A stretch of 64,000 bases of DNA from an uncultured Fretibacterium sp. Lineage in GTDB: Bacteria; Synergistota; Synergistia; Synergistales; Aminobacteriaceae. Made by a program: the position numbers and the translations under genes. Positions 19,350 to 42,771 of this stretch are shown here, in pieces (position 1 is the first letter of the stretch; the number at the start of each line of letters is the position of its first letter). The notes under the pieces are model-generated. The model worked only from the letters and a program-made list of their open reading frames with translations. It ran no database searches and was not told the origin of the DNA. Location of the stretch: the NCBI GenBank assembly GCA_946183145.1, contig CAMGZM010000011.1, positions 26,043 to 90,042 on the forward strand, given 5' to 3'.

Positions 19350-20066
19350 TTAGTCTCTTCTCTTCCCGAAAATTTTTATCAGGTACAAGAACAGGTTTAT
19401 GAAGTCAAGATACAACGCAAGCGCGCCGATTACCGCAACTTTTCCGACTGACTCATCGTCATTAATGCCGGAACTTTCAGCGATAGATTTTATTTTCGCG
19501 GTGTCGTAAGCAGTCAATCCCATGAAGATTATTACGCCCATAACGCTTATCACAGTTTCAGTCGCTGTTGAGCCTACGAACATGTTAATCACCATCGCGA
19601 TAATCAGCCCCCAGAGTCCCATGTGCAGGAAACTTCCCCATGACGTAATATCACGCTTCGTGTACATAGCATACACGCTCATTGCCCCGAACATTCCCGC
19701 CGTCGACAAAAACGCCGTGTATACGCTTTCCTGCGTGTAAACCAGAAGCACAACTGAAATCGTTATCCCGTTAAGTATGCTGTAGAGTCCGAATAGCAAG
19801 AGTGATGTTGTAGCGTCATGTTTTGCGATTGTCGCGCTAAGGTAAAACACGAGTCCTAACTCCGCGATTGCCGCAATGATTAACGGAGCGCGTGAGCCGT
19901 AGAAGAATCGTATCATTGATGGGGTTGCGACTGTGAGCCACGCTGTTAATGACGTGAGAATGAGTCCTAACGCCATATACTGATAGACTTTTCGGAAAAG
20001 TGTATTGACCGATTCAACGCTTCCGACTCCAACCGCGTAAGGTGTATAGCCGTCGTATTGTGCCAT
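19350..20066 (-). CDS. Bax inhibitor-1 / YccA-family membrane protein
   Basis: This 238-residue protein has seven predicted membrane helices. It carries the family-type features QYMALGLILTSLTAW near the start, LYSILNGITIS in the middle and LTAYDTAKIKSIAE before the last helix. It ends with LYLDFINLFLYLIKIFGKR, a hallmark of bacterial BI-1 proteins. These are inner-membrane proteins linked to calcium or proton leak and to modulation of FtsH-type proteolysis. It is the intact copy of a tandem duplication; the second copy (20267..20989) is interrupted. It is transcribed divergently from the region leading to greA. Confidence 0.88.
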   Translation of the reverse strand: MAQYDGYTPYAVGVGSVESVNTLFRKVYQYMALGLILTSLTAWLTVATPSMIRFFYGSRAPLIIAAIAELGLVFYLSATIAKHDATTSLLLFGLYSILNGITISVVLLVYTQESVYTAFLSTAGMFGAMSVYAMYTKRDITSWGSFLHMGLWGLIIAMVINMFVGSTATETVISVMGVIIFMGLTAYDTAKIKSIAESSGINDDESVGKVAVIGALALYLDFINLFLYLIKIFGKRRD

Positions 20067-20266: not shown

Positions 20267-20989
20267 CTAGTCCTTTTTCTTCCAGAACAAGCGTATTAAG
20301 TACAGGAACAGCAGGTACAAGAACAGGTTGATGAAATCCAGATACAGCCCAAGCGCACCCGTAACCGCAACTTCCCCGGCAGCCTCATCATTATTCATGT
20401 CTGAATCTTCAGCAAGCGATTTTATTTTCGCGGCATCATACGCCGTCAAGACCGTGAATATTATTATGCCTATCACGCTTATCACAGTTACAGTTGCCGA
20501 TGACCCTACGAACATATTAATCACCATCGCGATAATCAGTTCTCAGAGTCCCATAAGCAAGAAACTTCCCCGTGTCGTAATGTCGCGCTTAGTGTACATA
20601 GCATACACGCTCATTGTCACGAACATTCCCGCCGTCGGCAAAAACTCTGTATATACACTCTCCTCTGTGGAAAACAGAAGAAACACCGAACATGTTATGC
20701 CGTTGAGTATGCTGTAGATTACGAAAAGCAAGAGTGATGTTGACGCTGAATATTTTGCGATTGTCGAGCTGATGTAAAAAACGAATCCAATTTCTACGAT
20801 TGCAACAATGATTAACGGAGTAAGTGAACTCTCAAACATTCTTAACATTGTCGGGCTTGATGCTATGAGCCATGCTGTTATCGACGTGAGAACTAATCCG
20901 AGTGCCATATACTGATAAACTTTGCGGAAGAGTGCATTAACCGCTTCGACTCCTGCGGCGTAAGGTGTACAGCTGTCGTATTGTGCCAT
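20267..20989 (-). pseudogene. Second BI-1 family copy with an in-frame TGA
   Basis: The copy begins at ATG 20989 (MAQYDSCTPYAAGVEAVNAL, matching MAQYDGYTPY in copy A). It runs in one frame to the C-terminal NLFLYL...LFWKKKD. The codon at 20543-20545 is TGA where copy A has TGG in the segment Met-Gly-Leu-Trp-Gly-Leu-Ile-Ile. The frame continues unchanged on both sides, so one base change splits the gene into 149-residue and about 92-residue parts. The last helix also has a short internal duplication (LYLLFLYLI). Many nearby genes end with TGA, so recoding to Trp is unlikely. Truncated expression remains possible. Confidence 0.8.
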
Positions 20990-21071
20990 TAGTAATTGCC
21001 GCCTTTCGTGTAAAATAATGCCGCTGTATTTTAGCAAACAATATGAAAATCTAATGTGAAGGTGATAAATC

Positions 21072-21578
21072 ATGCCCGTGAAAAAAAATGATGTTCACGA
21101 AATGACAAGAAGCGGTTACGAAAGACTGTCAGAAGAATTGACTCACATGCGCACAGTGAGAAGGCTTGAAGTCGCAAAACAGTTAGAGGAAGCGCGAGCA
21201 TTCGGAGATTTGAGCGAGAACGCAGAATACGCAGCCGCAAAAGAGGAGCAGGCAAAACTTGAGGACAGGATACACGATCTTGAAGAGACACTCAGCAAAG
21301 TAACAGTAATCGATGAAGACAAACTTGACACGACAAAGGCAGGAGTCGGGCTCAAAGTAACAATCAAAGACATCGACAACGCCGGGAAACTTTACACGTA
21401 CGAAATTGTAGGCTCAGAGGAATTATCCGGCGCGGCGTTTTCAGCGTCAGGCATTCAGAGAATCTCACAGAAGAGTCCCGTAGGCCAGGCAGTGAGCGGC
21501 CATGTTGTAGGCGATGAAGTTATCGTGAAGATACCCAGAGGAACACGGAGACTCAGAATCGCGGCGATCGAGAAATGA
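21072..21578 (+). CDS. greA: Transcription elongation factor GreA
   Basis: This 168-residue protein is close to the usual 158-165. It has the N-terminal coiled coil with the catalytic acidic tip (RAFGDLSENAEYAAAKEEQ). The C-terminal globular domain has SPVGQAVSGHVVGDEV and IPRGTRRLRI. GreA rescues backtracked RNA polymerase by stimulating transcript cleavage. Its stop overlaps the start of the epimerase gene as ATGATGA. Confidence 0.95.
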   Translation: MPVKKNDVHEMTRSGYERLSEELTHMRTVRRLEVAKQLEEARAFGDLSENAEYAAAKEEQAKLEDRIHDLEETLSKVTVIDEDKLDTTKAGVGLKVTIKDIDNAGKLYTYEIVGSEELSGAAFSASGIQRISQKSPVGQAVSGHVVGDEVIVKIPRGTRRLRIAAIEK

Positions 21579-25520: not shown

Positions 25521-26162
25521 ATGGATGACTTAGCAATTATAGACATGGCCGCGAATGAATCGAATCCAAACTTGAGTCTCATGGATAAAAATATCATTCT
25601 CATAACGGGTATAACGGAAGCAAATATCAACTCAGCAATCAGAGCCGCAGAGTCATCAACATCATCTGAAAATGTAACTGTCGGAATCATAGCAGGCAAT
25701 ATCAATCCGCTGAACAAAAACATGAAAAGGCTTTCAGAACTTGCAGACGCGGTAATAATTTCGCGGGGAAATTTTGAGGACTCTTCACGGATAATCACGG
25801 AAGCAATTTCAGACATCATCACAAAATTCGGGTTCGTTAATCTCGATATTGAGGACGTAAAAGAGATTTTCAGGGACGCAGGAACGGTATATTACGGTGC
25901 AGGTACGGCTAAATCTGCGGGAGTCGCAGCCCTCAAAGCCTCCGAAATGTGCGGGGACATAACGAACGCAAAAGGATTCCTACTCAGCATAATATCAGGT
26001 GCGGAATTTCCTTTAAGCGAAATGACAGAAGCAGCACACGTTATCGAGGGCAATGCAGACCCGGACGCGCAAATAATCTGGGGACATGTGATTGATGAGA
26101 ATATGAGCGGGAATGTTAGAGTGTCAGTTTTCGCGGCCATGAATGACAAAGTGAGGCCGTAA
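25521..26162 (+). CDS. FtsZ C-terminal-domain-like protein without a GTPase domain
   Basis: By hand alignment, this 213-residue protein follows FtsZ from strand S4 onward. ILITGITEANINSAI stands where FtsZ has its GGGTGTG loop, followed by VTVGIIAGN (FtsZ-like TVAVVTKPF). From residue 91 the match is clear: ITEAISDIITKFGFVNLDIEDV corresponds to FtsZ H7, T7 loop and H8, with Asn107, Asp109 and Asp112 in the N-x-D-x-x-D pattern. NAKGFLLSIISG and IIWGHVIDENMSGNVRVSVFAA follow the C-terminal FtsZ sheet. The GTP-binding half is missing, so it should not bind GTP alone. An AGGAGG site precedes the ATG. The next gene, 2 bases on, is a related fusion. The role is unknown. Confidence 0.72.
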   Translation: MDDLAIIDMAANESNPNLSLMDKNIILITGITEANINSAIRAAESSTSSENVTVGIIAGNINPLNKNMKRLSELADAVIISRGNFEDSSRIITEAISDIITKFGFVNLDIEDVKEIFRDAGTVYYGAGTAKSAGVAALKASEMCGDITNAKGFLLSIISGAEFPLSEMTEAAHVIEGNADPDAQIIWGHVIDENMSGNVRVSVFAAMNDKVRP

Positions 26163-26164
26163 AT

Positions 26165-29014
26165 ATGTCAGCGGTGAAAATTATTGACCTGTCGAAAGGT
26201 GAAAGGCTGTATGATGTTAAGGAGTCAGATTTCATCATCATAACGGGCATAACAGAATCGACTCTCAATGACGCAATCACAATCGCAGAATCAGCGCGTG
26301 AATCAGGAGCCGTAACAATCGGAATCCCGGCGGGAAATCATGACGTGAAGAGATTTGCCGATGTTGCTGACGCTGTAATATTCTCACATGATGAGTCAGA
26401 GACTTCACGGGGAATCGCAGAAGAAATTTTAGACAGGGACGGCGATATTTTCGACATTCCGACAATGAGAGACATGTTCAGGAACGCGGGAACGGTGCAT
26501 TACGGCACAGGGAGCGGCGATGACATGGAGAGCGCATTACGCAAAGCCGCCGAAATGTGCGGGGATATTCACGGCGCAAAAACAGCCTTTGTGAAAATGT
26601 CATTGCCTCCGTCAGAAAAGGGTTTCGATGAAGTTCGCATAATAGACGACATACTCAAAGAATTTTGCGGTGATGATGTCAGCACTTGTTTCCCAAACAT
26701 ACTCATTGCGGACGGAAAAATCACGGCAAAAATTTTTGCGCTCATGTATGACGCTGGTTATACGAGCTGGCGCGAACTCTTTGCGAATGAAAGCGCAGAG
26801 AACATCACGGCCATGATTGAGAACGGACTTGACGAGCGCACAAGAACAAGGCTCGGCACGGAAAAATCATTCTTTGCGGCCTGTCTGAGATTCGGAACAC
26901 CTGAGCTTGTCAGAAAATTCATCAGCAAAGGCCATCACCCTAAAGAGCTTGAGACTGACGGAATATTTCCCGGAGATGTATTAGCTGACTGCCTCATGAA
27001 CGACATTAAAGCGCGCAATACCGGCATGACTGATATACTTTTGGAGTCTGGTATTTCCCTCGGTGAACACTGCGTAAAGGCTCTCGCTCCGTCGCTGAGG
27101 AATCCGAAAATCCTTCAGGCTTTCATCAATTACGGCTGGAACGTAAATTCACGTGATGAAAAGGGAGCTAACTTTATGTTTTATGCGGCGGCTGAATGTT
27201 CATATGAGTGCGTGAAACTTCTCGCTGAAGCAGGAGCTGACGTTAACGCACGGCGCAAGAAGGGATATACACCGCTTATGATTATGATGATTAATTGCAG
27301 CAATGACGCAGACACAGCGCACGAAATCCTGAAATACCTTCTCGCAAACGGAGCAGACATTAACGCCACAGCCGATGACGGCACAACACCTTTAACGCAG
27401 GCTGCGACATGGATATATTCACACCCTGATATAGTACGCACGTTCCTTAACGCAGGGGCGAATGTGAACGCAGAATTTACTGACGGTAATGGAGGAAGAT
27501 TATCCGTTCTTGATATTATGTTTGCGTCGTCCGTTTCTGTTTTCTCAGAGCCGGAAGAAAAACAGATATTTCTGCGTGAAGTCCTGCCCATGATGATTAA
27601 TGCCGGAGCAAATTTCAGCCCGTCCGAATCTCAGTCCCGAATCGATAATGAATACGGTAAAAAATATGAAGATTTCAGCCGCAACTGGAAGAGTCTTCTG
27701 ACTGACCCCGCAAACAAACCTCACGCGCTCAGGCTTTTTTGTGATTCGATTGCGGAATATGACACCGAAACCGTAAGGGGAATCATTGAGCGAATATCCC
27801 CTGAAAAAATTGTACCCGATTGCGGCGAATCTCCGTCAGAATTTCTCAGAATGTCAGCAAAACTCGCATTCAGGATTAACGATTTCCCCGAATCAGTGAG
27901 CAAACCTTCAGCACAGAACACAGAGATAAAACGCAGACTCGATAACGGAGCGGAGATTCTCAGAATCCTTCATGAAGCCGGAATCACATGGCCTCTTGTC
28001 CTCCCTGAAAGCACCGAATTAACGTACGTCATCAATGAAGAGTGGAAGCCGCGAAAAAAGATTGACGAAATGAATCCGTTAAGCCTCTGTCATTCGCCTG
28101 AAGCCCTGAAGAAAGTTATTGCCTCCGAGAAATATAACATGACTGACGCGCTGAAGGAAATTGCCGGGAGTTGTGAAATCTACTATCAGCCCGGAGAAAT
28201 GATGAATGTATTGCTCGCTAACGGCGCGGATATTCACGCTTTGAGTGATACGTGGATCGGCGAATGTCTTTCACACAGGGGAAAAATTCTCATGCTCGAC
28301 AACTTTCAGCAGGCAAAATTCATGGCCGAAATTTTCAGGAAGCATAACCTCTCAGACATAACCACCGTCAGCAACACACAGCATTATGACGGATGGGAGG
28401 AATATTACGGAGAGCCGCTGAGCTGTCATATGCTGAGTCATCTTTGGGAGATGATAGAGTCAGGAACAGACAACGCCGGAAAATGGGCAAAATTCCGGGA
28501 TGTGATGATGTTATTGTCGGCCTGCCGGGGGAATGTGAATGACATTGAGGACGCAATCAATCACGGCGGAAATATCAACTATTCAACGTGGCTCGGATAT
28601 ACTCCGCTGATGTACGCTGCTGTCTTCAACGACTCAGAGGCCGTAAAATTCCTCATCAAGAACAGAGCAGACATTAACGCCCGCAACATTCACAATCAGA
28701 ATGCCGCAATGCTCGCTGTTACGTCAGACTACAACGCACGGGACTCAAACGTGATTCGAGTCCTCGCTGAATTTGGAGCTGATATTCACAACGGCTTGAT
28801 GACTCTTGCTGTTGACGCGGGAAATGTTGACGCGGTGAAAGTTCTTCTCTCATTGGGCGCGAAATTGCCGGGGCAAAACGCAGTGAATAATCCTGAACCC
28901 GAAACGAGAAACGAGAAGCCCTGCCCGAAATGCGGAAGGATTTTAGAGCGCAGAACTTCTTACTGCCCCTCATGCGGGTATGTTCTCACGGTCAGTGAAA
29001 GGTATGGAAAGTGA
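26165..29014 (+). CDS. FtsZ-C-like / ankyrin-repeat / zinc-ribbon fusion protein
   Basis: This 949-residue protein starts 2 bases after the preceding gene. Residues about 20-150 are homologous to that gene (FIIITGITESTLNDAI, TIGIPAGN, FRNAGTVHYGTGSG, MCGDIHGAKTAF) and so to the FtsZ C-terminal half. The T7 loop has decayed: Asp97 remains, but the equivalents of Asn107 and Asp112 are Ile and Thr, and the final FtsZ strands are missing. From about 230 to 910 there are many ankyrin repeats, typified by VKLLAEAGADVNARRKKGYT, LLANGADINATADDGTTPL and VKFLIKNRADINARNIHNQN. The C-terminus is a zinc ribbon (CPKCG, nine residues, CPSCG). Ankyrins bind proteins, so this may be a sensor or scaffold. No signal peptide is seen. 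Confidence 0.72.
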   Translation: MSAVKIIDLSKGERLYDVKESDFIIITGITESTLNDAITIAESARESGAVTIGIPAGNHDVKRFADVADAVIFSHDESETSRGIAEEILDRDGDIFDIPTMRDMFRNAGTVHYGTGSGDDMESALRKAAEMCGDIHGAKTAFVKMSLPPSEKGFDEVRIIDDILKEFCGDDVSTCFPNILIADGKITAKIFALMYDAGYTSWRELFANESAENITAMIENGLDERTRTRLGTEKSFFAACLRFGTPELVRKFISKGHHPKELETDGIFPGDVLADCLMNDIKARNTGMTDILLESGISLGEHCVKALAPSLRNPKILQAFINYGWNVNSRDEKGANFMFYAAAECSYECVKLLAEAGADVNARRKKGYTPLMIMMINCSNDADTAHEILKYLLANGADINATADDGTTPLTQAATWIYSHPDIVRTFLNAGANVNAEFTDGNGGRLSVLDIMFASSVSVFSEPEEKQIFLREVLPMMINAGANFSPSESQSRIDNEYGKKYEDFSRNWKSLLTDPANKPHALRLFCDSIAEYDTETVRGIIERISPEKIVPDCGESPSEFLRMSAKLAFRINDFPESVSKPSAQNTEIKRRLDNGAEILRILHEAGITWPLVLPESTELTYVINEEWKPRKKIDEMNPLSLCHSPEALKKVIASEKYNMTDALKEIAGSCEIYYQPGEMMNVLLANGADIHALSDTWIGECLSHRGKILMLDNFQQAKFMAEIFRKHNLSDITTVSNTQHYDGWEEYYGEPLSCHMLSHLWEMIESGTDNAGKWAKFRDVMMLLSACRGNVNDIEDAINHGGNINYSTWLGYTPLMYAAVFNDSEAVKFLIKNRADINARNIHNQNAAMLAVTSDYNARDSNVIRVLAEFGADIHNGLMTLAVDAGNVDAVKVLLSLGAKLPGQNAVNNPEPETRNEKPCPKCGRILERRTSYCPSCGYVLTVSERYGK

Positions 29015-30241: not shown

Positions 30242-31213
30242 ATGCCGAAAGATATGACCTCAGTACGTCATGACAGATTATCGCGTGTTATGGCGTTCTT
30301 GCAGTCAAGAGTGAAGGCGACTCATGACGAAATATTTTCGGCGGGCGAATATCACAGCAACAGGACGCTACAGAATGATTTGTACTATTTGCGGGGGATA
30401 TACGGAGCTGACATACGGTATGACATTCACGAGAAGTTATACGTTATGGAGAGTGCCGGAATATTTCACGTGAACCTGCGAATCACTGAGGGCGAAATTA
30501 CAGCATTAAGTGCAGGGCTTGACATGGCCGGGCATTTCCTGCCTCACCTGAAAGACTCTGCACATTCGCTTTTCGGGAAGCTCGGAAAATATATGCCCGC
30601 TGAAATTCTTTCTCTCGGCTCAGAGATAACGCGTTCGACTCTCAATGCGATTCCAGTTGCAGAAGTTGACGCAAAAATTTTCGGGACTCTCGTTGAGGCT
30701 AAACGCTCGCAAAAGACCGTGAACATTCTTTACTCATCACCCGGAAAAATGCCTAAGCACTGGACGTTATCGCCGTATGATTTTTACTTCAGGGGCAATG
30801 CGTGGTACATGGCTTCATACAATCACAAGTATGACAATCTCAGCATTCACCGAATCAGCAGGATAATTAGCGCGTCAATTTCTGATGAAGAGTATGTGAA
30901 GCCTGAAGACGGAGGATTTACGGAGGACTATACATTGTCGGCGTGGCATGTGATTCCGGGAGATGAGAAGATTCACGTGAAGGTGAGAATCACAGAGCCT
31001 TTAGCGCAGACGTTCCGCGAGATGAAGTGGCATCCGTCGCAGAAGGTTGAAGAGTGTGAAGAAGGAGGCGTGATACTTTCGGCGGAAGTTCCGAATCTCT
31101 ATGAGTTCGCGAGGTGGGTTATGTCAGGCGCACCGCATGTTATTGTGATTGAGCCTGATGAGCTGAAAGAGATTGTGAGAAGTTTCGCGGAGGAAATATT
31201 GAATAAGCTGTGA
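30242..31213 (+). CDS. WYL-domain transcriptional regulator
   Basis: This 323-residue protein has an N-terminal winged helix (HDRLSRVMAFLQSRVKATHDE) and a central WYL domain (WTLSPYDFYFRGNAWYMASY, then LSIHRISRI). It ends with a WCX-type region (FARWVMSGAPHVIVIEPDEL). WYL proteins bind nucleotide or nucleic-acid ligands and often repress phage-defence operons. It starts 3 bases after the nuclease gene, so it probably controls this operon, including itself. The ligand is unknown. Confidence 0.85.
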   Translation: MPKDMTSVRHDRLSRVMAFLQSRVKATHDEIFSAGEYHSNRTLQNDLYYLRGIYGADIRYDIHEKLYVMESAGIFHVNLRITEGEITALSAGLDMAGHFLPHLKDSAHSLFGKLGKYMPAEILSLGSEITRSTLNAIPVAEVDAKIFGTLVEAKRSQKTVNILYSSPGKMPKHWTLSPYDFYFRGNAWYMASYNHKYDNLSIHRISRIISASISDEEYVKPEDGGFTEDYTLSAWHVIPGDEKIHVKVRITEPLAQTFREMKWHPSQKVEECEEGGVILSAEVPNLYEFARWVMSGAPHVIVIEPDELKEIVRSFAEEILNKL

Positions 31214-31256
31214 TAGATTAATAATACTTGAAAAATACATGAAAGGAGAAAGATAC

Positions 31257-32318
31257 ATGAGCTATTTTCTTCACAGAATATCCCACGAATGGAGCATATC
31301 AAAGCCGCTGTTAGACAATGGATATTTGACAGTGGGATGGCAGTATATGCTGTGGTCTGATGAAACTGTAAAAAGCGTAACTGAAAATGCAGATCGTGAT
31401 ACAGTCCATGAAGCTATGAATAGATACCACGAGTCTGAAGGCTGGGACTTAATGTATAGAGGTGCTACGCGCTCGCTCTCGATGTTCTCGCAGTTCAGGC
31501 CCGGTGATGTGGTTATTGTTCCGCTTTACTGGGGATATTTCAGAATTGTGCGTGTGAAGAGCAGCCCTAAGCCTGTTACGGAGCTTCCTGCTTCTGCGCT
31601 TGAAAGTCTGCCTGCAGTACTGAAAAATGACAGCGGGGAAAAAGGACTTTACACCAACGGAAAAGAAATAGATCTCGGCTTCTACGTTGAGATTGAACCT
31701 GTTGTAAAATAGGATATTCAGCGAAGCTACGCAAATTCCGCGCTTCAGTCCCGAATGAAGATACGACAGACTAATGCGGACATAAACGACTTAGAGTCAG
31801 AAATTCTCAGCGTGGCAGAACGCAAAGAACCTGTAAACCTTTATGATGTAATTGCGGATAAGGCAGCAAATATCATTCTCACGGCAATAAATGACAATGC
31901 AAACCCTATAGACACCGAAAAACTTGTGCGCTGGTACATGAAGAAAGCCGGAGCCGCAAAAGTATACAAGCCGTCAAAACCTAAGGGGAATCCTGATGAA
32001 TATAATTATGCAGATGCCGATGTAGCAGCAGAATTTTCACCGCTTGGAGTCAACATATACATTCAGGTTAAGAAGCATGACGGCACGACAGGAGATTGGG
32101 CAGTTCAGCAGATAAAGAAATACAAAGAACTCCAGACAATAAATTTTGCTGAAGGCGAGACAAATATTATGTGGGTTCTCTCAACAGCAGGAGAATTTTC
32201 GAAAGACGCAATATCACTCGCGCAGGAAAATTCTGTACGGCTTATTAACGGAATGGAATTTGCCCGTATGCTTGCTGATGCAGGAATATCTGATATAAAC
32301 GATTTCACATCAATGTAA
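31257..32318 (+). pseudogene. Mrr-like restriction endonuclease, split by an in-frame TAG
   Basis: The frame starts at ATG 31257, eight bases after AAAGGAG. The first 151 codons (SYFLHRISHEWSISKPLL, FRPGDVVIVPLYWG, IDLGFYVEIEPVVK) end at a TAG at 31710-31712. The same frame then continues through DIQRSYANSALQSRMKIRQT to TAA at 32318. The second part holds the Mrr nuclease core, ADADVAAEF with the Q-x-K motif in IYIQVKKHDG, and INGMEFARMLADAGI near the end. The match across the TAG shows that this was one gene of about 354 residues. It is inactivated unless the stop is read through or the two halves reassociate. Confidence 0.8.
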
Positions 32319-32360: not shown

Positions 32361-33389
32361 ATGTTATATCGTTACAATGAGGGGCGAATTATGCCTGTGC
32401 CTTACTGCGATTATTCAGAGCTTCAGGGCCGCGAAAAGGATTTAGAGAATCTTCTTGCTGCTTATCTTGAAGATTTGTACGCGGAAGGCGGTCAGTCATT
32501 CATGCCGATCTTTCAGGAAAGGGCAATGCAGGAAGAACCAGATATTTGCGCTCTTGACACACAGGGCGGTCTTGTGATTTTCGAGCTGAAACGCGGCAAT
32601 GCAGGAAGGGGAGCTGTTGAGCAGATTATGAGATATGCCGAGCTTTTCGGCAAAAGAGATTATGACCAGTTGAACAGCATGTACAGAACGTATATCAATG
32701 ACAGCAACGCTGAACTCAAAAAGGCTCATGCTGATGCGTTCGAGCTTCCTGCACCATTAAGCGATGAGTCTTTCAACCGCAGACAGAAACTTGTCATTGT
32801 GGGAAATTCCGCAGACAGAGATTTGATGAATGCTGTCGATTACTGGAAAAACCAGGGCATTGACATTGATTTTCTACCTTACCGTTTTTACAGGATAGGA
32901 GATGAGATTTACTTCGAGTTTTTCGCCAAGCCGTATGATTATCACATGAATCCCCGCGCAAAAAAGGGCATACTGTTCGATACAAATTTGAGCTGGTCTG
33001 ATGACAATGAAAAATGTATGCTTGAAAGAGGTCATATAGAAGCATACGGCGGTGTCAAATGGGCTGTTGACAGTTTCTCGAAAGGTGATTACGCGCTCTT
33101 CTACTCAAAGGGCAGGGGAGTTATTGCTATAGGTGAAATTACATCACGTGAAGCAAGATAACTTCACGGTGCAGAAGATGCCGATGACGGGCGTTATCAT
33201 GAAGTAAAAATGATTGTTCCGCAGAATGTCTCAGGTTCAGACGGCTATAATCAGAGCCTGTATCCTTATGAGATAAAAACTTTGCTTGATCAGGGCTTCT
33301 ATTTTGCAAGGACAGACAAGAGACCGTACCTTAGTGAAGAACAGGTGAAAATTCTCATTGAGGCATTGAGGAAAAAATACAACGCTTAA
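32361..33389 (+). pseudogene. NucS/DUF91-like nuclease, interrupted near the 3' end by an in-frame TAA
   Basis: The gene starts at ATG 32361 after AGGAGGAG. The first 266 codons include a PD-(D/E)XK core (EEPDICALDTQGGLVIFELK) and VEQIMRYAELFGKRDYDQL, as in the NucS/DUF91-like and related nuclease families. A TAA at 33159-33161 is followed in the same frame by 75 sense codons (LHGAEDADDGRYHEVKMIV to ALRKKYNA) ending at TAA 33387-33389. The continuing frame, sensible composition and the terminator right after it show that the original gene was about 342 residues. The nuclease core is upstream of the stop, so a truncated enzyme could still be made. Confidence 0.75.
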
Positions 33390-34749: not shown

Positions 34750-37700
34750 TTGTATTATCCTCTTACCCCTCCCGAAACCGGCATGTATCTGGAGCAGAAA
34801 TTAAACCCTTCATCAACAGAATACACGCTTGATTTTGGACTCGTCATAAAAGGAGCCGGAGAAAATGAAATCAATTCGGCCATGTCGGAAATTTTCACAC
34901 GTCATGAAGCGTTAAGATCATATTATTCTGAGGATAACGGAGTCCCCGTTCGAGTTCTTTCGGATGAAATACCCAAAATCATCTGGAAAGAATCATCTTC
35001 ACGCACTGAAGTCGAAAACATAATCAGCGCGAACAATGAAGCATTTTCACTCTCATCAGTTCCCGTTCACGTAACAGGCTACAAACTCCCGGATGAGTCA
35101 ATAATTCTTCATTTCTCAGTTCATCATATCGCTTTTGACGCAACAAGCTGCAACATACTGATAAATGAGCTTTTCTCTTTGCTGAAACATGAGACTCTGC
35201 CGGAATCACAGCTTGATGTTACGGACATTGCGAGGGCTGAAAGTGCAGAAAAATATGAACATGGCCGCAAATTTTACCGTGAAATGTTTTCTGACGGAGT
35301 GCCAGTTAATGACATGCCCGTAAAAGGAACGAGGCCGAAAATACATCCTCAGAATGACAGCGTAAAATCATACACATTCACGGAGCAGGAAATATCATCT
35401 CTCACAAAAACAGCTCATGATTTGGGCGCAACAGTTTTCGGGCTTATGTTCTCGGCAATATCGATAGCAGTCGGGAAATATTGCAGGAGTGAAGATATTG
35501 TTATAGCTTTCTCCGTCAACAGAAGGCCGCAAGAATACGCGAATGTTATCGGAATGTTCGTGAATCTCGCACCTTTGCGACTGAAACCGAATGCAGATCG
35601 TGAAGTCAGTGAATACGTCCGTGATGTCGCGGGACTCATCAAATCAGCCTCGTGTGATGCGTCATTGCCTTTTGCTGAAATCGTCAAAGAATTTTCAGGA
35701 GTCAGGGACGAATCAAGAAGCCCGGTTTTTGATGTCTCAGTAAACTACAGGCACATTCCCGGAAAACTTGATGACGGAAAAATCAGCGTTGAGTTTCTTT
35801 ACGCCCTTCAAAGACTCAGAGATGACATCACTATTACGATTGACAGAACAGACTCAGGCATGAAACTTTACGTGCAATATTCCTCAGAGCTTTTTGACGA
35901 CGGATTAATAGCCCGCTTTACGGAGAATATCCGCGAAACATTAAGGCTAATACAGGAGAATCCAAGCGCAAATATCTCTGATGTGTCAATTTTACCGGGA
36001 GAAAAAAGCTATGAAGAGGACAGAAAATATTACGCAGAAATTTTCAGTGATTGTGATTTTGTGAGCGTTCCTGATTCAGATGTTCAGGACGATAACATTA
36101 ACGGCACGGGATTTCTTGAGATTGAGTCCCGTAATGCTGATTGGGGCAGGATTTCACGTTTCTGTTCTGAGAGCGGCATAACTGAAAACGCATTCTTCAC
36201 GGGGGCATACGGCTATGTTCTTTCGGGATTCAGCGGTGAGGACGGCGCATTGTTCGCGGTTCAAAACGTCATGAATGATTCTGACGGCGCATTAATCCCT
36301 GTGCTTTGCAGAGTAACGGACTCAGATATACGCGGTTACTTGAGTGCGACAGATAAACAGCTCCGCAACAGTATGAATCATAATGTATATTCCTTCTCAG
36401 AAATCAGAAGCGAACTAGGAATATCAGCGGAAATGCTTTTTGCGTATCATGGCTCAGTCTCAAACGCTGAATCGATTAATGAGGCAGAGTCGGCGGTTTC
36501 ATTTGAGGTTTTTCCTGACAGCGGCGGCAAATTGCGTTACGTAATTTCATGGCGGAAATCACAATACACAGAAGATTTCATCAGGGCATTAGCTGGAGTT
36601 TACGACAAAGTTTTATCGGAGTTCACAGAGCGCAAAAATCTCAGTGAGGTAAATTTTGCTGACGATTCTTCACTGACTCTGATGGACAAAGCAAACGAAA
36701 ACGAAACCGATTATGACAAGTCAGACATTGTAACCCAGTTCCGAAAAGCAGCAGAGAAATTCCCGGACAATATAGCGGTTGCGTACAAGGATAAGCGTTA
36801 CACGTACAAAGAGGTTGACGAGATCACCGAGAGAGTCGCGGCATATCTCAAGGGACGCGGAATAGGTTCGGAAGATGTTGTGTCGATACTGATTCCGCGC
36901 TGTGAGTATATGGTGATTGCCTCGCTTGGAGTCCTCAAGACTTGCGCCGCCTATCAGCCGTTAGATCCTTCGTACCCTCCTGAACGGCTCGAATTTATGA
37001 TTACGGACGCTTCCGCAAAGCTGTTGATTGCAGACAGGAATCTCATCAAAGACTGCGTGCCGAATTATCACGGAGAAATACTTTACACTGATGAAATACC
37101 CGCATTGCCTCACGCGCAGAAACTCACGGAGACTCCTAAACCGTCAAATCTTTTCATCATGCTTTACACTTCAGGCTCAACAGGAGTCCCCAAAGGCGTA
37201 ATGCTTGAACACGGAAATCTAGCCTGCTTCACAGCGTGGTACAAGAACACGAATAACCTCACGGAAAAATCCAGAGTAGCGGCTTATGCGAGTTACGGAT
37301 TCGACGCTTGCATGATGGACTTATATCCCGCACTTACATCGGGCGCGGCTGTCCACATACTTGACGAGGAAATAAGGCTTGATTTCGCGGCTATACAGAA
37401 ATATTTTGACGCTGAGGGAATAACACACTGCTTCATGACGACTCAGGTAGGCAGACAGTTCGCGGAATTTTACACGGGGCAATCGCTGAAATATTTATCT
37501 GTCGGCGGTGAGAGGCTTGCTCCAATTTTCCCGGAGAATAAGAGCTTCACTTTGCTCAATGGTTACGGCCCTACAGAATGCACAATCTTTACAGCTACAT
37601 TCCCTGTCAAGAAACTTTACAGGCGCATTCCGATCGGCTCGGCTCTCGATAACTTGAAGCTGTACATTGTCGACAAGAACGGGCGCAAACTTCCTCCGTA

Positions 37701-40700
37701 TATGCCCGGTGAGCTTTGGATTTCAGGTCATCAGGTCGGGCGCGGTTACTTCAACAGGCCGGATAAAAACGCAGAAAGTTTCATCAAAAATCCTTTCACG
37801 AACGAGGAAGGCTACACGAGAGTTTACAGGACGGGTGATATAGTCCGCAATGTTTATGACGGCGGTAAAATTCTTGTTGACTACATAGGCAGAAAAGACT
37901 CTCAGGTGAAAATACGCGGCTTCCGTATTGAGCTTACAGAAGTTGAGTCAGTAATCAGGAAATTTCCGGGCGTGAAAGATGTAACAGTTCAGGCTTTCGA
38001 CTCAGACAGCGGGGAAAAATATCTTGCGGCTTATGTCGTCAGTGACGGGAAAATTGATGTTAATGCGCTGAATGAATTTATAGGCCAGGACAAACCGCCG
38101 TATATGATTCCCGCCGTAACAATGCAGATTGACGCAATCCCCCTCAACCAGAACCAGAAAGTCAACCGCAAAGCACTTCCCAAGCCCGAAATCACAAACA
38201 CGCAAAAAGAATCCGAGTCAATTTCAGCACCGTTGAATGTGCTGGAGAAAGACATAAAGGACATAATAGCAGGGATAACAGGCACGGACTCTTTCAGCAT
38301 AACGGACAATCTCGGTAATTTCGGACTCACGTCAATATCAAGCATACGGCTTGCGACTCAGATCTACAAGAAATATGGCGTTCAGTTACAGGTGAGAAAA
38401 CTCGTCTCAGAAGGAAGCATACAGAGTATAGAGAACGAAATTTTGCGGAAAGTTTTTGCGGCTGAGTCCAACGCGGAAAAATCAGAGCCAACAGAATCAC
38501 ATAAGCTGTCAAAAAATTCATGCGGACTCACGTTTGAACAGCAGGGAGTTTACGCGGACTGCATGATTGACCCGTCATCAACAGTCTACAACACGCCTTT
38601 TTCCGTGAAGATTCCTGAAGGTGTTACGGCAGAACAGCTCAAAGAGGCGGTTCGGGGAGTTGTTGAAGCGCATCCGTATATACTTTGCAGATTCACGGCC
38701 AATGACAGAAACGAGATAATACAGGAGCAAATTCCCGATTTCACGCTCGACATTCCCGAAAAAGAAATGACTCCTGAGGATTACGAGTCTTACCGCAAAG
38801 AAGGCTTTGTGCGTCCGTTCAGCCTCTCAGAAGGGCCGCTCGTGCGTTTTGAGATTGTGAAGTCTGACGGGCTATATTTACTGATGGATATGCACCATCT
38901 TGTTACTGACGGTGCGTCTGTTGATATATTCCTTCAGCAGTTGTGCGAGAAACTTGACGGCCATGAAATAGAGCATGAAGAGTACAGCTACTATGATTAC
39001 GCCGCCGATGAGAGAATGACGGAGGGAGCAGACGAATTTTTTGCCGGGAGAATGGCACTCTCAGATGAAGCGACTCAGATTATCCCGGACGTTTACGGGG
39101 AAAATCTCAAGCATTCGGAGGACTCCGTAAGCGTCAAGACAGACATAAAAGCCGTGAAAGAATTTGCCCTCAAGCACAGCGCAACACCCGCTGAAATTTA
39201 CCTTGCTGCTGGATATATTACGTTCTCGCGTTTCGTGTGTGATGATACTGTCTCAATCATGACGATCTCAAACGGACGCAGTAACATAAAGATTGCCGGC
39301 ACTCTGGGAATGTTCGTTAATTCACTGCCTCTTGTTGAAACTGTCAACAATTCCGAAAATGTTGCGGACTTCATCAAACGTTCGGCAAAAAATTTCAACG
39401 ATACACTTCTCCATGAAAATTACCCGTTCGCGCGCGCTGCAAAAAAGTTTGATTTTCATCCGAGCATCTCATACGCATACCAGATAGGAGTCCTAAGCGA
39501 GTACAGGACGAAATACGGAGCATTAACCGCAGAAGAGCTTACATCGGACAAAGCAAAAATCCCTGTCGCAGTCTTCATCACAGGAACAGAGGACGAAGCC
39601 GAAATCAAGATAAGCTACGACACCGCGCTATACAGCCGTGAAATTATGCAGGGACTCGCAGAGTGTTACGAAAACGTTGTGAAAGGGATTCTGACTCAGG
39701 AAAAAATTTCTGATATCAGCATAACGGACTCGCGTCAATGGGAAATTCTCGACTCGTACAATCCTGAATGGGATCTGAATTACGACATGGCCGCCACGCC
39801 CGTATCAGCCTTCAGGAGGAACGCAAAGAACAACCCCGGCAAAGTTGCGGCGGTATTCAGGGATAAGCAGTACACATACAGGGAGCTTGACGAACTCACA
39901 GACAGACTCGCGGCGAAAATCTACAGCAGAATGAAAGCCATCACAGGCAAAGAGAAATTATCTGAGGAAGTAATCTCAATCATTCTCCCACGAAATGAAA
40001 ACGTCTTCATTCTCCCTCTTGCTGTTGTGAAAGCCGGATGTGCGTATGAACCGTTAGATCCTTCATACCCGCAGGAGAGACTCAATTTCATGGTGAAAGA
40101 CTCCGGCGCGAGACTCCTAATTGCGGATGACTCTTTGCGCCCGCTCGTGAATGAATATCAGGGCGATGTTCTTACGGTCAGCGAGTTGTACAGCATGAAT
40201 GACTCGAACGACATACCGCAGAGTCCGTCCCCTGAAAATTTGTTCGTCATGCTCTACACATCAGGGTCAACAGGAACTCCGAAAGGCTGTCAGATTGAAC
40301 ACCGTAATGTTGCCGCGCTCGCTCACGGGATAAAGTCAGCAGGCTTCTACAGGGAGGATGACCGAATCGCCGATTATGCGTCATTTGGTTTTGACGTGAA
40401 CATGGCCGATGTCTTTTGCACGCTCATTAACGGCGGAACGGTCTATATCATTCCCGAGTATATACGGATGAATCTTGACTCACTCGCAGAATATTTTGAC
40501 GAGTCGGGAATTACAGCGTTATTGCTCACGACTCAAGTCGGCGTTCAGTTCATGCAGAATTACCCGCACTGCAAAACTTTGCGACTCCTCTTAATCGCGG
40601 GGGAAAAATTACCTGCTGTTGACCCTTCCGGCTTGAGTTACACAATCGCAAACGGCTACGGCCCTACGGAAAACTGTTACGGCGTGAGTATATTCCCGAT

Positions 40701-42771
40701 TCGCAAATGGGAGAAGAATATCCCAATCGGAAAACCATTCCCGACAATTCACGGCTACATTCTCGACAAGACAGGACACAGACTCCCAGCAGGTGCGGCG
40801 GGTGAATACTGCCTCTCAGGGCCGCAAGTCAGCAGAGGTTATCTTAACCGCCCGGACAAAACAGCGGAGGCTTACGAGGATTGCCCGTTCACCAAGTTCA
40901 GAATGTATCACACGGGGGATATTGTGCGTTATCGTCAGGACGGAAATGTTGAGTTTGTCGGGCGCAAGGACGGACAAGTGAAGATTCGCGGCTTCAGGAT
41001 TGAGACGAAAGAAATCGAGTCAGTGATTAGGAATTTCGGCGGCGTTAAAGATGCTACTGTTCAGGCTTACGATTACGAATCAGGCGGGAAGTATCTTGCT
41101 GCTTTTGTCGTGAGTGATAATGCAATCGACACAGAAAAGTTGCGCGAATACATAAAGAGTCAGAAGCCCGCGTATATGGTTCCTGCTGTGATAATGCAGA
41201 TTGAGAAAGTGCCGCTGACTGTGAATCAGAAAGTTGACAGGAAAGCATTACCCAAGCCGGAATTACAGAGGCGTGAATATGTTGCGCCAGCCGGAAAAAC
41301 TGAGGAGGATTTCTGCGGGATATTCGGCGAGATTCTGGGGATTGAGAGAGTCAGCGCGGAAGATGATTTCTTTGAGCTTGGCGGAAGCTCCGTTATCGCT
41401 ATGAAGGTTGTCATCGCCGCGGGCAAAAAGGGATATAGTATCGTCTACAATGACGTTTTCAAGTACACAACGCCGAGACTCCTCGCTGAGTTTGTTACGG
41501 GTTCAGAAAGTCAGACGCAAGAAATCACAGCCAACATTGACACATCAGCCGGAAAAATTACGGAAATCGACTCAGAAGGCTACGACTATTCAGCGATTCA
41601 TGCACTTCTCGCGAAAAACACAATGGAGGCATTCAAGAGCGGAGAACGTCAGAAACTGGGCGATGTCCTTTTAACGGGTGCTACGGGGTATCTTGGGATT
41701 CATGTGCTTGAAGAGATTATTACGTCAACAGAGTCAAAAGTTTTCTGCCTCGTAAGACCCAAAGAAGGAAGCAGCGGTGAAAAGCGTCTGAAGAATCTTC
41801 TTGAGTATTACTTCGGCCATGACCACGCGGAATATTTTGCTTCACGCATCAATGTCATTGAAGGCGACGCAACAGACCCGGACTCGCTGAGAGATTTTTC
41901 GCCGGACTCAAGCATGACCGTGATAAACTGCGCGGCATCCGTAAAGCATTTCGCAAAAGGAAACGAGATCGAACGCACTAACGTTGATTCGGTGAAGAAT
42001 CTTGCGGCATGGTGCGAGGAAAATAATTCACGTCTCGTACACATCTCAACAGGAAGCATTATCGGCGGAAGGAAAAACGGACTCCCCCTTGAAGGTTACC
42101 GCTTTGATGAGCATGTGTTTTTTGCTGGTCAGACTGTGAGTCATAATCAGTATATACACTCGAAATTCATGGCCGAGAGATTTATTTACGAGGAAATTCT
42201 GACGCACGGACTCAGCGCAAAAGTATTCAGAGTCGGAGACCTTGCGCCGCGTTTGTCGGACGGAAAATTTCAGGTCAACTTCAGGACGAACAATATCATG
42301 AACTCCCTTAGAGCCTATAAGATTCTCGGAGTGGTGAATTTCGGCGTGCTTGCGGAAGAGATTGAGTTCTCGCCGATTGACTCCCTCGCAAAAAGCGTTA
42401 TAGCCCTCGCACAGACTCCGAAAGAGTGTATATGCTTCATGCCGATTAACCCGCACAGGGCGTTAATGCAGGACGTTTTCACGGAGATTCGCGGACACGG
42501 GGTCGGCTATGAGATTCGCGCAGTTGAAGATGACGAATTGCAGAAGGCACTTGACGCGGCATTGTCCGACAGCAGAAAGAACAGCGCGGTTTCTCCGTTA
42601 GTCGCATACTCAAACAAGAGCGGCATTCAGGATCTCAGCTGGAACGATATAGATATGAGCTTCACAACACAAGCACTTTACCGTTTAGGCTTCTCATGGC
42701 CTCAAACAGGAGCGGAATACATCAGGCAGTTCATCAGGAAACTTGACGGGCTTTCATTCTTTGACGAGTAA
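34750..42771 (+). CDS. Two-module NRPS with terminal thioester reductase
   Basis: This 2673-residue enzyme reads C-(partial C)-A-T-C-A-T-R. C1 has HHIAFDA with His125, His126 and Asp130. Residues about 430-640 look like the second half of another C domain without an HHxxxD motif. A1 (about 665-1150) has YTSGSTGVPKG and NGYGPTE. T1 Ser1195 lies in FGLTSISS. C2 has HHLVTDG near 1382. A2 (about 1695-2165) has YTSGSTGTPKG and NGYGPTEN. T2 Ser2214 lies in ELGGSSV. The reductase starts LLTGATGYLGIHVLEE. Such enzymes release a dipeptide aldehyde by reduction. The start must be TTG 34750, because a TAA lies in frame just upstream. No PPTase, MbtH or thioesterase gene is adjacent. Confidence 0.92.
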   Translation: MYYPLTPPETGMYLEQKLNPSSTEYTLDFGLVIKGAGENEINSAMSEIFTRHEALRSYYSEDNGVPVRVLSDEIPKIIWKESSSRTEVENIISANNEAFSLSSVPVHVTGYKLPDESIILHFSVHHIAFDATSCNILINELFSLLKHETLPESQLDVTDIARAESAEKYEHGRKFYREMFSDGVPVNDMPVKGTRPKIHPQNDSVKSYTFTEQEISSLTKTAHDLGATVFGLMFSAISIAVGKYCRSEDIVIAFSVNRRPQEYANVIGMFVNLAPLRLKPNADREVSEYVRDVAGLIKSASCDASLPFAEIVKEFSGVRDESRSPVFDVSVNYRHIPGKLDDGKISVEFLYALQRLRDDITITIDRTDSGMKLYVQYSSELFDDGLIARFTENIRETLRLIQENPSANISDVSILPGEKSYEEDRKYYAEIFSDCDFVSVPDSDVQDDNINGTGFLEIESRNADWGRISRFCSESGITENAFFTGAYGYVLSGFSGEDGALFAVQNVMNDSDGALIPVLCRVTDSDIRGYLSATDKQLRNSMNHNVYSFSEIRSELGISAEMLFAYHGSVSNAESINEAESAVSFEVFPDSGGKLRYVISWRKSQYTEDFIRALAGVYDKVLSEFTERKNLSEVNFADDSSLTLMDKANENETDYDKSDIVTQFRKAAEKFPDNIAVAYKDKRYTYKEVDEITERVAAYLKGRGIGSEDVVSILIPRCEYMVIASLGVLKTCAAYQPLDPSYPPERLEFMITDASAKLLIADRNLIKDCVPNYHGEILYTDEIPALPHAQKLTETPKPSNLFIMLYTSGSTGVPKGVMLEHGNLACFTAWYKNTNNLTEKSRVAAYASYGFDACMMDLYPALTSGAAVHILDEEIRLDFAAIQKYFDAEGITHCFMTTQVGRQFAEFYTGQSLKYLSVGGERLAPIFPENKSFTLLNGYGPTECTIFTATFPVKKLYRRIPIGSALDNLKLYIVDKNGRKLPPYMPGELWISGHQVGRGYFNRPDKNAESFIKNPFTNEEGYTRVYRTGDIVRNVYDGGKILVDYIGRKDSQVKIRGFRIELTEVESVIRKFPGVKDVTVQAFDSDSGEKYLAAYVVSDGKIDVNALNEFIGQDKPPYMIPAVTMQIDAIPLNQNQKVNRKALPKPEITNTQKESESISAPLNVLEKDIKDIIAGITGTDSFSITDNLGNFGLTSISSIRLATQIYKKYGVQLQVRKLVSEGSIQSIENEILRKVFAAESNAEKSEPTESHKLSKNSCGLTFEQQGVYADCMIDPSSTVYNTPFSVKIPEGVTAEQLKEAVRGVVEAHPYILCRFTANDRNEIIQEQIPDFTLDIPEKEMTPEDYESYRKEGFVRPFSLSEGPLVRFEIVKSDGLYLLMDMHHLVTDGASVDIFLQQLCEKLDGHEIEHEEYSYYDYAADERMTEGADEFFAGRMALSDEATQIIPDVYGENLKHSEDSVSVKTDIKAVKEFALKHSATPAEIYLAAGYITFSRFVCDDTVSIMTISNGRSNIKIAGTLGMFVNSLPLVETVNNSENVADFIKRSAKNFNDTLLHENYPFARAAKKFDFHPSISYAYQIGVLSEYRTKYGALTAEELTSDKAKIPVAVFITGTEDEAEIKISYDTALYSREIMQGLAECYENVVKGILTQEKISDISITDSRQWEILDSYNPEWDLNYDMAATPVSAFRRNAKNNPGKVAAVFRDKQYTYRELDELTDRLAAKIYSRMKAITGKEKLSEEVISIILPRNENVFILPLAVVKAGCAYEPLDPSYPQERLNFMVKDSGARLLIADDSLRPLVNEYQGDVLTVSELYSMNDSNDIPQSPSPENLFVMLYTSGSTGTPKGCQIEHRNVAALAHGIKSAGFYREDDRIADYASFGFDVNMADVFCTLINGGTVYIIPEYIRMNLDSLAEYFDESGITALLLTTQVGVQFMQNYPHCKTLRLLLIAGEKLPAVDPSGLSYTIANGYGPTENCYGVSIFPIRKWEKNIPIGKPFPTIHGYILDKTGHRLPAGAAGEYCLSGPQVSRGYLNRPDKTAEAYEDCPFTKFRMYHTGDIVRYRQDGNVEFVGRKDGQVKIRGFRIETKEIESVIRNFGGVKDATVQAYDYESGGKYLAAFVVSDNAIDTEKLREYIKSQKPAYMVPAVIMQIEKVPLTVNQKVDRKALPKPELQRREYVAPAGKTEEDFCGIFGEILGIERVSAEDDFFELGGSSVIAMKVVIAAGKKGYSIVYNDVFKYTTPRLLAEFVTGSESQTQEITANIDTSAGKITEIDSEGYDYSAIHALLAKNTMEAFKSGERQKLGDVLLTGATGYLGIHVLEEIITSTESKVFCLVRPKEGSSGEKRLKNLLEYYFGHDHAEYFASRINVIEGDATDPDSLRDFSPDSSMTVINCAASVKHFAKGNEIERTNVDSVKNLAAWCEENNSRLVHISTGSIIGGRKNGLPLEGYRFDEHVFFAGQTVSHNQYIHSKFMAERFIYEEILTHGLSAKVFRVGDLAPRLSDGKFQVNFRTNNIMNSLRAYKILGVVNFGVLAEEIEFSPIDSLAKSVIALAQTPKECICFMPINPHRALMQDVFTEIRGHGVGYEIRAVEDDELQKALDAALSDSRKNSAVSPLVAYSNKSGIQDLSWNDIDMSFTTQALYRLGFSWPQTGAEYIRQFIRKLDGLSFFDE

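Follow-up and report, generated by a model that had tools for sequence, protein, structure and literature searches.

Reduced FtsZ paralogues that lost the GTP-binding loops and kept the T7 face: putative docking parts of a defence-like cassette in a genus of Synergistaceae

A genus of Synergistaceae encodes, besides its canonical FtsZ, a family of reduced FtsZ paralogues in which the GTP-binding loops are gone and the T7 (synergy) loop is kept, which suggests, on comparison of sequences, that a cell-division protein has been reused in this genus as a docking or sensing part. The family came to light through a 213-aa protein encoded in a 64,000-nucleotide stretch of DNA from an uncultured Fretibacterium sp., referred to here as the window. 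We infer, with a probability of roughly one half that covers both its binding to FtsZ and a role in defence, that this protein is an adaptor by which a defence-like cassette docks on FtsZ. The host genomes are metagenome-assembled genomes (MAGs) of Synergistaceae; goat reticulum and red deer are the sources of related records.

Results

An FtsZ paralogue without GTP-binding loops

The 213-aa protein belongs to the FtsZ superfamily by homology: its C-domain matches the Pfam model FtsZ_C (PF12327) at 5e-15, with 56 bits against a cut-off of 27. Across residues 81-207 it is 43% identical to the host's own FtsZ, the single canonical FtsZ of the window's genome (444 aa, encoded elsewhere); against TIGR00065 it scores 70 bits, below the cut-off of 295. 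It consists of a complete C-domain, helix H7 and a shortened, degenerate N-domain, and because the latter remains, "half-FtsZ" is an approximate label only. Among the hallmarks of a functional cell-division GTPase, the T1-T4 loops including GGGTGTG are absent (T1, T3 and T4 are missing in sequence and alignment) and the T7 motif N-x-D-x-x-D is present. As it has no GTP face, self-polymerisation without a partner would not be expected. N107, D109 and D112, which the first-pass annotation had found in FtsZ order, align with N214, D216 and D219 of the host FtsZ; homology, not chance, accounts for the motif. An AlphaFold2 model (pLDDT 85, pTM 0.85) superimposes on FtsZ structures over 208 residues (Z 23.5, rmsd 2.4), although its input of six sequences, from the window and database loci, included a full FtsZ that may bias it towards this fold. 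A decaying pseudogene was rejected because dN/dS is 0.17-0.44 in every FtsZ-like pair tested and T7 is kept across lineages.

Table 1. Features of the half-FtsZ cassette, in window coordinates.
Feature	Position	Strand	Basis
Free-standing FtsZ paralogue, 213 aa, without GTP-binding loops, complete C-domain	25521..26162	+	Pfam, identity to host FtsZ, model
T7 (synergy) loop N107-x-D109-x-x-D112	25839..25856	+	Alignment; codons N107 25839-25841, D109 25845-25847, D112 25854-25856
Start of helix H10 (L165, E167); T7-side ("bottom") face, second patch	26013..26021	+	Columns L278 23/23, E280 22/23
W187-G-H189-x-x-D192, strand S9 and following loop, third patch of the T7-side face	26079..26096	+	W, H kept 22/23
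949-aa protein: degenerate FtsZ-derived N-terminal segment (~residues 1-210), ankyrin repeats, C-terminal zinc-ribbon-like motif	26165..29014	+	
Lost T7 position in the 949-aa protein, FDIPT, residues 96-100	26450..26464	+	Alignment: N deleted, third D = T
PDDEXK_4 nuclease-superfamily protein, 397 aa	29045..30238	+	Pfam 8e-29; PADLOC candidate defence family PDC-S26, 6e-62
WYL/WCX-domain transcriptional regulator, 323 aa, most constant cassette partner	30242..31213	+	Pfam, PADLOC, genus survey
Two ORFs (157 + 187 aa), likely split PDC-S02/Mrr-type nuclease, variable slot behind WYL	31239..32318	+	PADLOC
NucS-C-like, PDC-S11-like protein, variable slot behind WYL	32361..33161	+	

The T7-side face is conserved

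The first-pass annotation had made its proposal depend on conservation of the three residues in orthologues, and they are clearly conserved. Column tests drew on 23 paralogues, whose C-domains share on average 41% identity with that of host FtsZ. The T7 N is kept in 22 of them, the first D in 21 and the second in all 23, figures flattered by the omission of T7-less copies; left out were three ankyrin-fused copies without T7, G005_235, G062b_618 and, from G061, the near-complete copy. The full set of 29 rows includes 21 with an intact N-D-D, and at least one perfect copy is present in 18 of 20 genomes; the imperfect motifs of G064 and G021 read IDD, NVD and NED. As a baseline, the 82 columns that are invariant in the FtsZs of the genus show a mean retention of 47% in the 23 paralogues, and three randomly drawn host-invariant columns equal the retention of T7 N/D/D with P 0.0009, a value that, like those of the other column tests, overstates independence because the paralogues are kin by descent.

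Conservation is not confined to T7. The T7 loop, strand S9 and the start of helix H10, named as FtsZ contact elements in PMC5414002, together retain 81% of host-invariant residues versus 41% elsewhere (Mann-Whitney P 3e-6). Of these, T7 was a hypothesis set in advance; S9 and H10 were linked to the published contact elements once the conserved columns were already known. The enrichment persists with 14 representatives less than 55% identical (P 6e-6). At the codon level, dN/dS of the window gene is lowest around T7: between G000 and G030 it is 0.16 at residues 85-131, with 0.57 and 0.49 on the flanks, and the comparison with G003 gives 0.15 around T7 versus 0.68 and 0.30. Judged by column retention and dN/dS, purifying selection acts on the whole T7-side face, T7 loop included, despite the loss of the GTP-binding loops.

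Could the fold alone explain why T7 is retained? This is unlikely, because FtsZ with D210N or a replaced T7 has been crystallised, because N208L, D210N and D213N stop FtsZ assembly (PMC8936486), and because five T7-less paralogues within the family provide a natural contrast.

One function on two chains

The 949-aa ORF starts 2 bases after the 213-aa ORF, and its FtsZ-derived segment has indeed lost two of the three T7 residues, as had been noted. Tandem pairs of this kind occur in G000, G030 and G028, and in all three the ankyrin-fused copy is the one without T7; in the assembly of G028, the free-standing copy is interrupted and spans two overlapping frames. In G004, G034, G035 and G062, the ankyrin-fused copy keeps N-D-D and no tandem free-standing copy was seen. 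The T7-less fused copies nest in the tree within the T7-bearing fused ones (supports 97/91, 99/95, 99/91 and 100/100). The simplest history would be one protein, combining docking face and ankyrin scaffold, that was later split over two genes. Since fused T7-bearing relatives exist and the T7-less copies nest inside them, the 213-aa protein and its 949-aa partner appear to share one function between two chains, which speaks for a single complex rather than a toxin and a separate brake. The earlier suggestion that the partner restrains or senses the small protein finds no support, since in four genomes the ankyrin protein itself carries an intact T7. The fused copy of G028 looks chimeric, its N-terminal part being G000-like and the rest G004-like, so recombination has a role as well.

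A genus-specific family in several forms

A profile search finds extra FtsZ-like genes in 20 of the 43 genomes of the genus. By contrast, none of 38 genomes of sister genera has an extra copy in a family-wide profile search, each giving at most one canonical FtsZ match; the reduced paralogues are a genus-specific family. Several forms can be told apart: proteins of ~140 aa, in which a short N-terminal stretch replaces the N-domain and whose genes adjoin cstA and ilvC, outside ankyrin/WYL cassettes; proteins of 207-225 aa that resemble the window's 213-aa protein; proteins of ~260 aa, in which the N-domain is degenerate, though complete; FtsZ-like modules fused to the same ankyrin protein; and, in G034 (L074:1060-2907), an in-frame fusion in which a degenerate FtsZ N-terminal part, up to and including T7, precedes the PDDEXK_4 nuclease. 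One contig scan returned three loci: one half-FtsZ, one host FtsZ and one other FtsZ.

G061 carries a second ftsZ in tandem, upstream of ftsZ (L060:3018-3911), with a GGSTGSG loop and an intact T7, apparently an early stage of the same reduction. Because this copy keeps GGSTGSG and groups with its own host FtsZ in the tree, reduction of FtsZ in the genus probably began more than once. Among the matches listed in a phylum-wide PF12327 search, the second FtsZ genes of another Synergistota family are full-length. That family (f4), of the same order, has two FtsZ_C matches in most genomes, apparently from an older, separate duplication.

A phage or plasmid origin was rejected: two IMG/VR scans, which detect close relatives only, returned no relative, and PHROG gave no match. 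GenBank phage matches are few, at most 40% identical over at most 66% of the query, some of them annotated as FtsZ; phage and plasmid matches taken together stay within ~40% identity and 70% query cover, the annotated ones shown being FtsZ. Searches of the open-licence literature brought up no previous description of FtsZ paralogues cut down to the C-domain, nor of FtsZ-like/ankyrin defence cassettes.

Neighbouring genes: nucleases, WYL regulators and IetA-like ATPases

Four plus-strand ORFs stand in a row in the window, encoding the half-FtsZ (213 aa), the ankyrin protein (949 aa), the PDDEXK_4 protein (397 aa) and the WYL regulator (323 aa). A site between flagellin and aldo/keto reductase genes holds FtsZ-like/ankyrin, PDDEXK_4 and WYL genes in G000, G004 and G028 (two contigs); G030 has the FtsZ-like pair and WYL beside its flagellin gene, and related cassettes lie at other sites in G010, G034, G035 and G062. 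FtsZ-like, PDDEXK_4 and WYL genes form same-strand operons in G000 and G004, and likewise, without ankyrin, in G010. Thirteen WYL copies are at least 69% identical, of which nine adjoin an FtsZ-like gene or its operon; the other four are so close to contig ends that the neighbouring gene is out of view. Copies of ~50% identity adjoin other ankyrin genes in some genomes, so that WYL-ankyrin pairs also exist without FtsZ.

The gene behind WYL changes between genomes, and several of these genes are of nuclease type. In the genome of the window the Mrr-type gene looks split into two ORFs, whereas Mrr-type genes are single ORFs in G030, G002 and G034. A gene of 458-467 aa lies directly behind WYL in three genomes (L080:16-1392, L081:479-1882, L085:4748-6142); it is PADLOC negative, two of the three had no match in a Pfam scan, and it is a candidate effector of the WYL slot. 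An IetA-like double-AAA ATPase, rare in the genus (7 of 43 genomes), adjoins the FtsZ-like gene in G021 and G005, is separated from it by one small ORF in G010 and by one gene in G064, lies by a WYL cassette in G035 and G011, and is found at a contig end in G009. A family of ~208 aa was also seen just before the FtsZ-like gene, in tandem in G009 (L073:70-1309; these copies are without Pfam match) and as a fragment in G010 (L070:7083-7271).

Between genomes, the WYL gene evolves with dN/dS 0.09, the FtsZ-like and ankyrin genes with 0.42 and 0.44. The faster rate is as expected for sensing parts in conflict, and weaker constraint would look alike. The cassette is patchy and combines a nuclease, a regulator and defence-type partners, as a defence system does. 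PADLOC models for PDC-S26, PDC-S02, PDC-S11 and IetA match the nuclease and ATPase partner genes but not the half-FtsZ itself. These neighbours, and matches to PADLOC families that are themselves candidates, suggest that the cassette may serve anti-phage defence.

Discussion

A putative FtsZ-docking adaptor

What would a protein with a T7 face and no GTP site bind? FtsZ is the obvious partner, being the cell's GTP-bearing homologue. Growth of FtsZ filaments has been placed at the T7-exposing end, where incoming monomers would attach by their GTP face (PMC8936486; the same polarity is given in PMC8042166), which predicts that a protein with a T7 face only binds to monomers or to a filament's shrinking end. 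In the reading that we favour, the half-FtsZ would take the upper position in a filament contact, docked on the GTP face of host FtsZ, either free GTP-FtsZ or a shrinking filament end, and, lacking a GTP face itself, could not be extended. The docked module would bring the ankyrin protein, and then the PD-(D/E)XK nuclease and the WYL regulator, to FtsZ, and the cassette could thereby read the state of the division machinery, its likeliest purpose being to guard FtsZ against phage interference. Docking face and ankyrin scaffold would be two proteins in the window and one in relatives. As the ~140-aa forms occur outside cassettes, the function of T7 may be older than any defence role.

The first-pass annotation had proposed that a protein with a T7 face and without GTP site could cap the FtsZ filament and stop division. 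The part of this idea that stands is the face itself, selected in a protein devoid of GTP loops; capping and arrest are weakened, given that FtsZ mutations on the T7 side are reported to be toxic and defects of the GTP (top) face with an intact T7 side are reported not to be (PMC8936486). The half-FtsZ resembles the non-toxic class, so that docking without strong inhibition would be expected, as of an adaptor or sensor, and by this analogy a T7-face-only protein may inhibit weakly at most.

Alternative readings

Alternatively, the kept face could be a bait: phage inhibitors directed at the T7 side of FtsZ would bind the half-FtsZ in its place and trigger the ankyrin/nuclease effector, in which case docking to host FtsZ would not be needed. 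In a published prediction, Gp0.4 of phage T7 attaches, as SulA and MciZ do, to the synergy-loop face of FtsZ; Gp0.4 and FtsZ as a complex switch on the defence protein CapRelEbc (PMC13423816). The defence-type matches of the neighbours (PDC-S26, S02, S11 and IetA-like models), the patchy cassette with its varying nucleases behind WYL, and the faster evolution of the FtsZ-like and ankyrin genes (dN/dS ~0.4, WYL 0.09) agree with a decoy as well. However, a bait needs only the residues that an inhibitor touches, and conservation is strictest in the catalytic N/D/D, which is important for the contact of FtsZ with FtsZ; short forms outside cassettes also keep the same face. We consider the decoy unlikely; it rests on the same conserved face as docking.

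Could the small protein instead be a division inhibitor, which acts by capping FtsZ or by sequestering its GTP-bound form and is held in check by the ankyrin partner? Such an inhibitor would have what is seen here, a T7 face conserved under selection and no GTP face. Yet FtsZ variants with a good T7 side and a bad GTP side are reported as non-toxic, and the reverse as toxic (PMC8936486), which disfavours a block of division; moreover, the T7-bearing module is part of the ankyrin protein in four genomes, so a free toxin with a separate brake is not the common plan. We therefore rate inhibition as rather improbable.

Least plausible is that the face serves the protein's own fold or contacts among the cassette's FtsZ-like proteins and not host FtsZ. 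The conserved W/H/L/E residues could partly serve the fold, and in the ankyrin-fused copy of G028, which lost T7, two thirds of the S9/H10 patch remain. Against this, real FtsZ folds even when its T7 is mutated, the T7 N/D/D columns rank among the most strictly conserved, and with no GTP face in the family for T7 to dock on, FtsZ-like contacts among its members would have to be new.

Relation to known systems

With canonical FtsZ (TIGR00065/PF12327) the half-FtsZ shares the C-domain, helix H7, the T7 loop and the fold; it is without the GTP-binding loops, the GTP face and the C-terminal tail. FtsZl1 proteins (Makarova and Koonin 2010, PMC2875224) are likewise divergent members of the FtsZ superfamily with extra domains, but they are reduced in the opposite way, keeping the GTP-binding part and showing no similarity to the C-domain, and their S6-T7 region misfits the FtsZ structure. 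The 213-aa protein shows the reverse, and half-FtsZs, which kept the docking half and dropped the enzyme half, are a mirror image of that family. SulA, MciZ and Gp0.4 are small proteins that act at the longitudinal interface of FtsZ, as we propose for the half-FtsZ; they are unrelated to FtsZ and bind its T7 side, whereas the half-FtsZ is FtsZ-derived and would offer its own T7 side to the GTP side. CapRelEbc is comparable in that FtsZ is involved in phage recognition by an immune protein, but it is a fused toxin-antitoxin, the FtsZ involved is that of the cell itself, and its description contains no FtsZ paralogue (PMC13423816). ARC3, an FtsZ-like inhibitor of plants, is a possible further analogue.

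Plant immune receptors use integrated decoys. The half-FtsZ family is an offshoot of the FtsZ superfamily, and a new guard or decoy principle is a possibility. More tentatively, and with the odds against it, the cassettes might represent a new defence architecture: a reduced version of FtsZ, an essential host protein, would work as guard or decoy, keeping only the face that makes the filament contact and that phage inhibitors attack, and would signal to ankyrin/PD-(D/E)XK/WYL or AAA-ATPase effectors. Because half-FtsZs repeatedly lie next to nuclease, WYL and IetA-like ATPase genes, the use of essential-protein copies as immune guards or decoys can be tested directly. If they bind FtsZ, they would also be natural one-sided subunits for the study of filament polarity and end dynamics.

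Other genes of the window

Two further loci were observed. On the minus strand, 20267-21073 (ORFs of 86 and 176 aa) appears to be a second, broken copy of the intact gene at 19350-20066, the proteins clustering together. Adjoining the cassette on the plus strand is a large NRPS-like gene (34750-42771, 2673 aa) with two condensation and AMP-binding domains and a terminal reductase-type domain.
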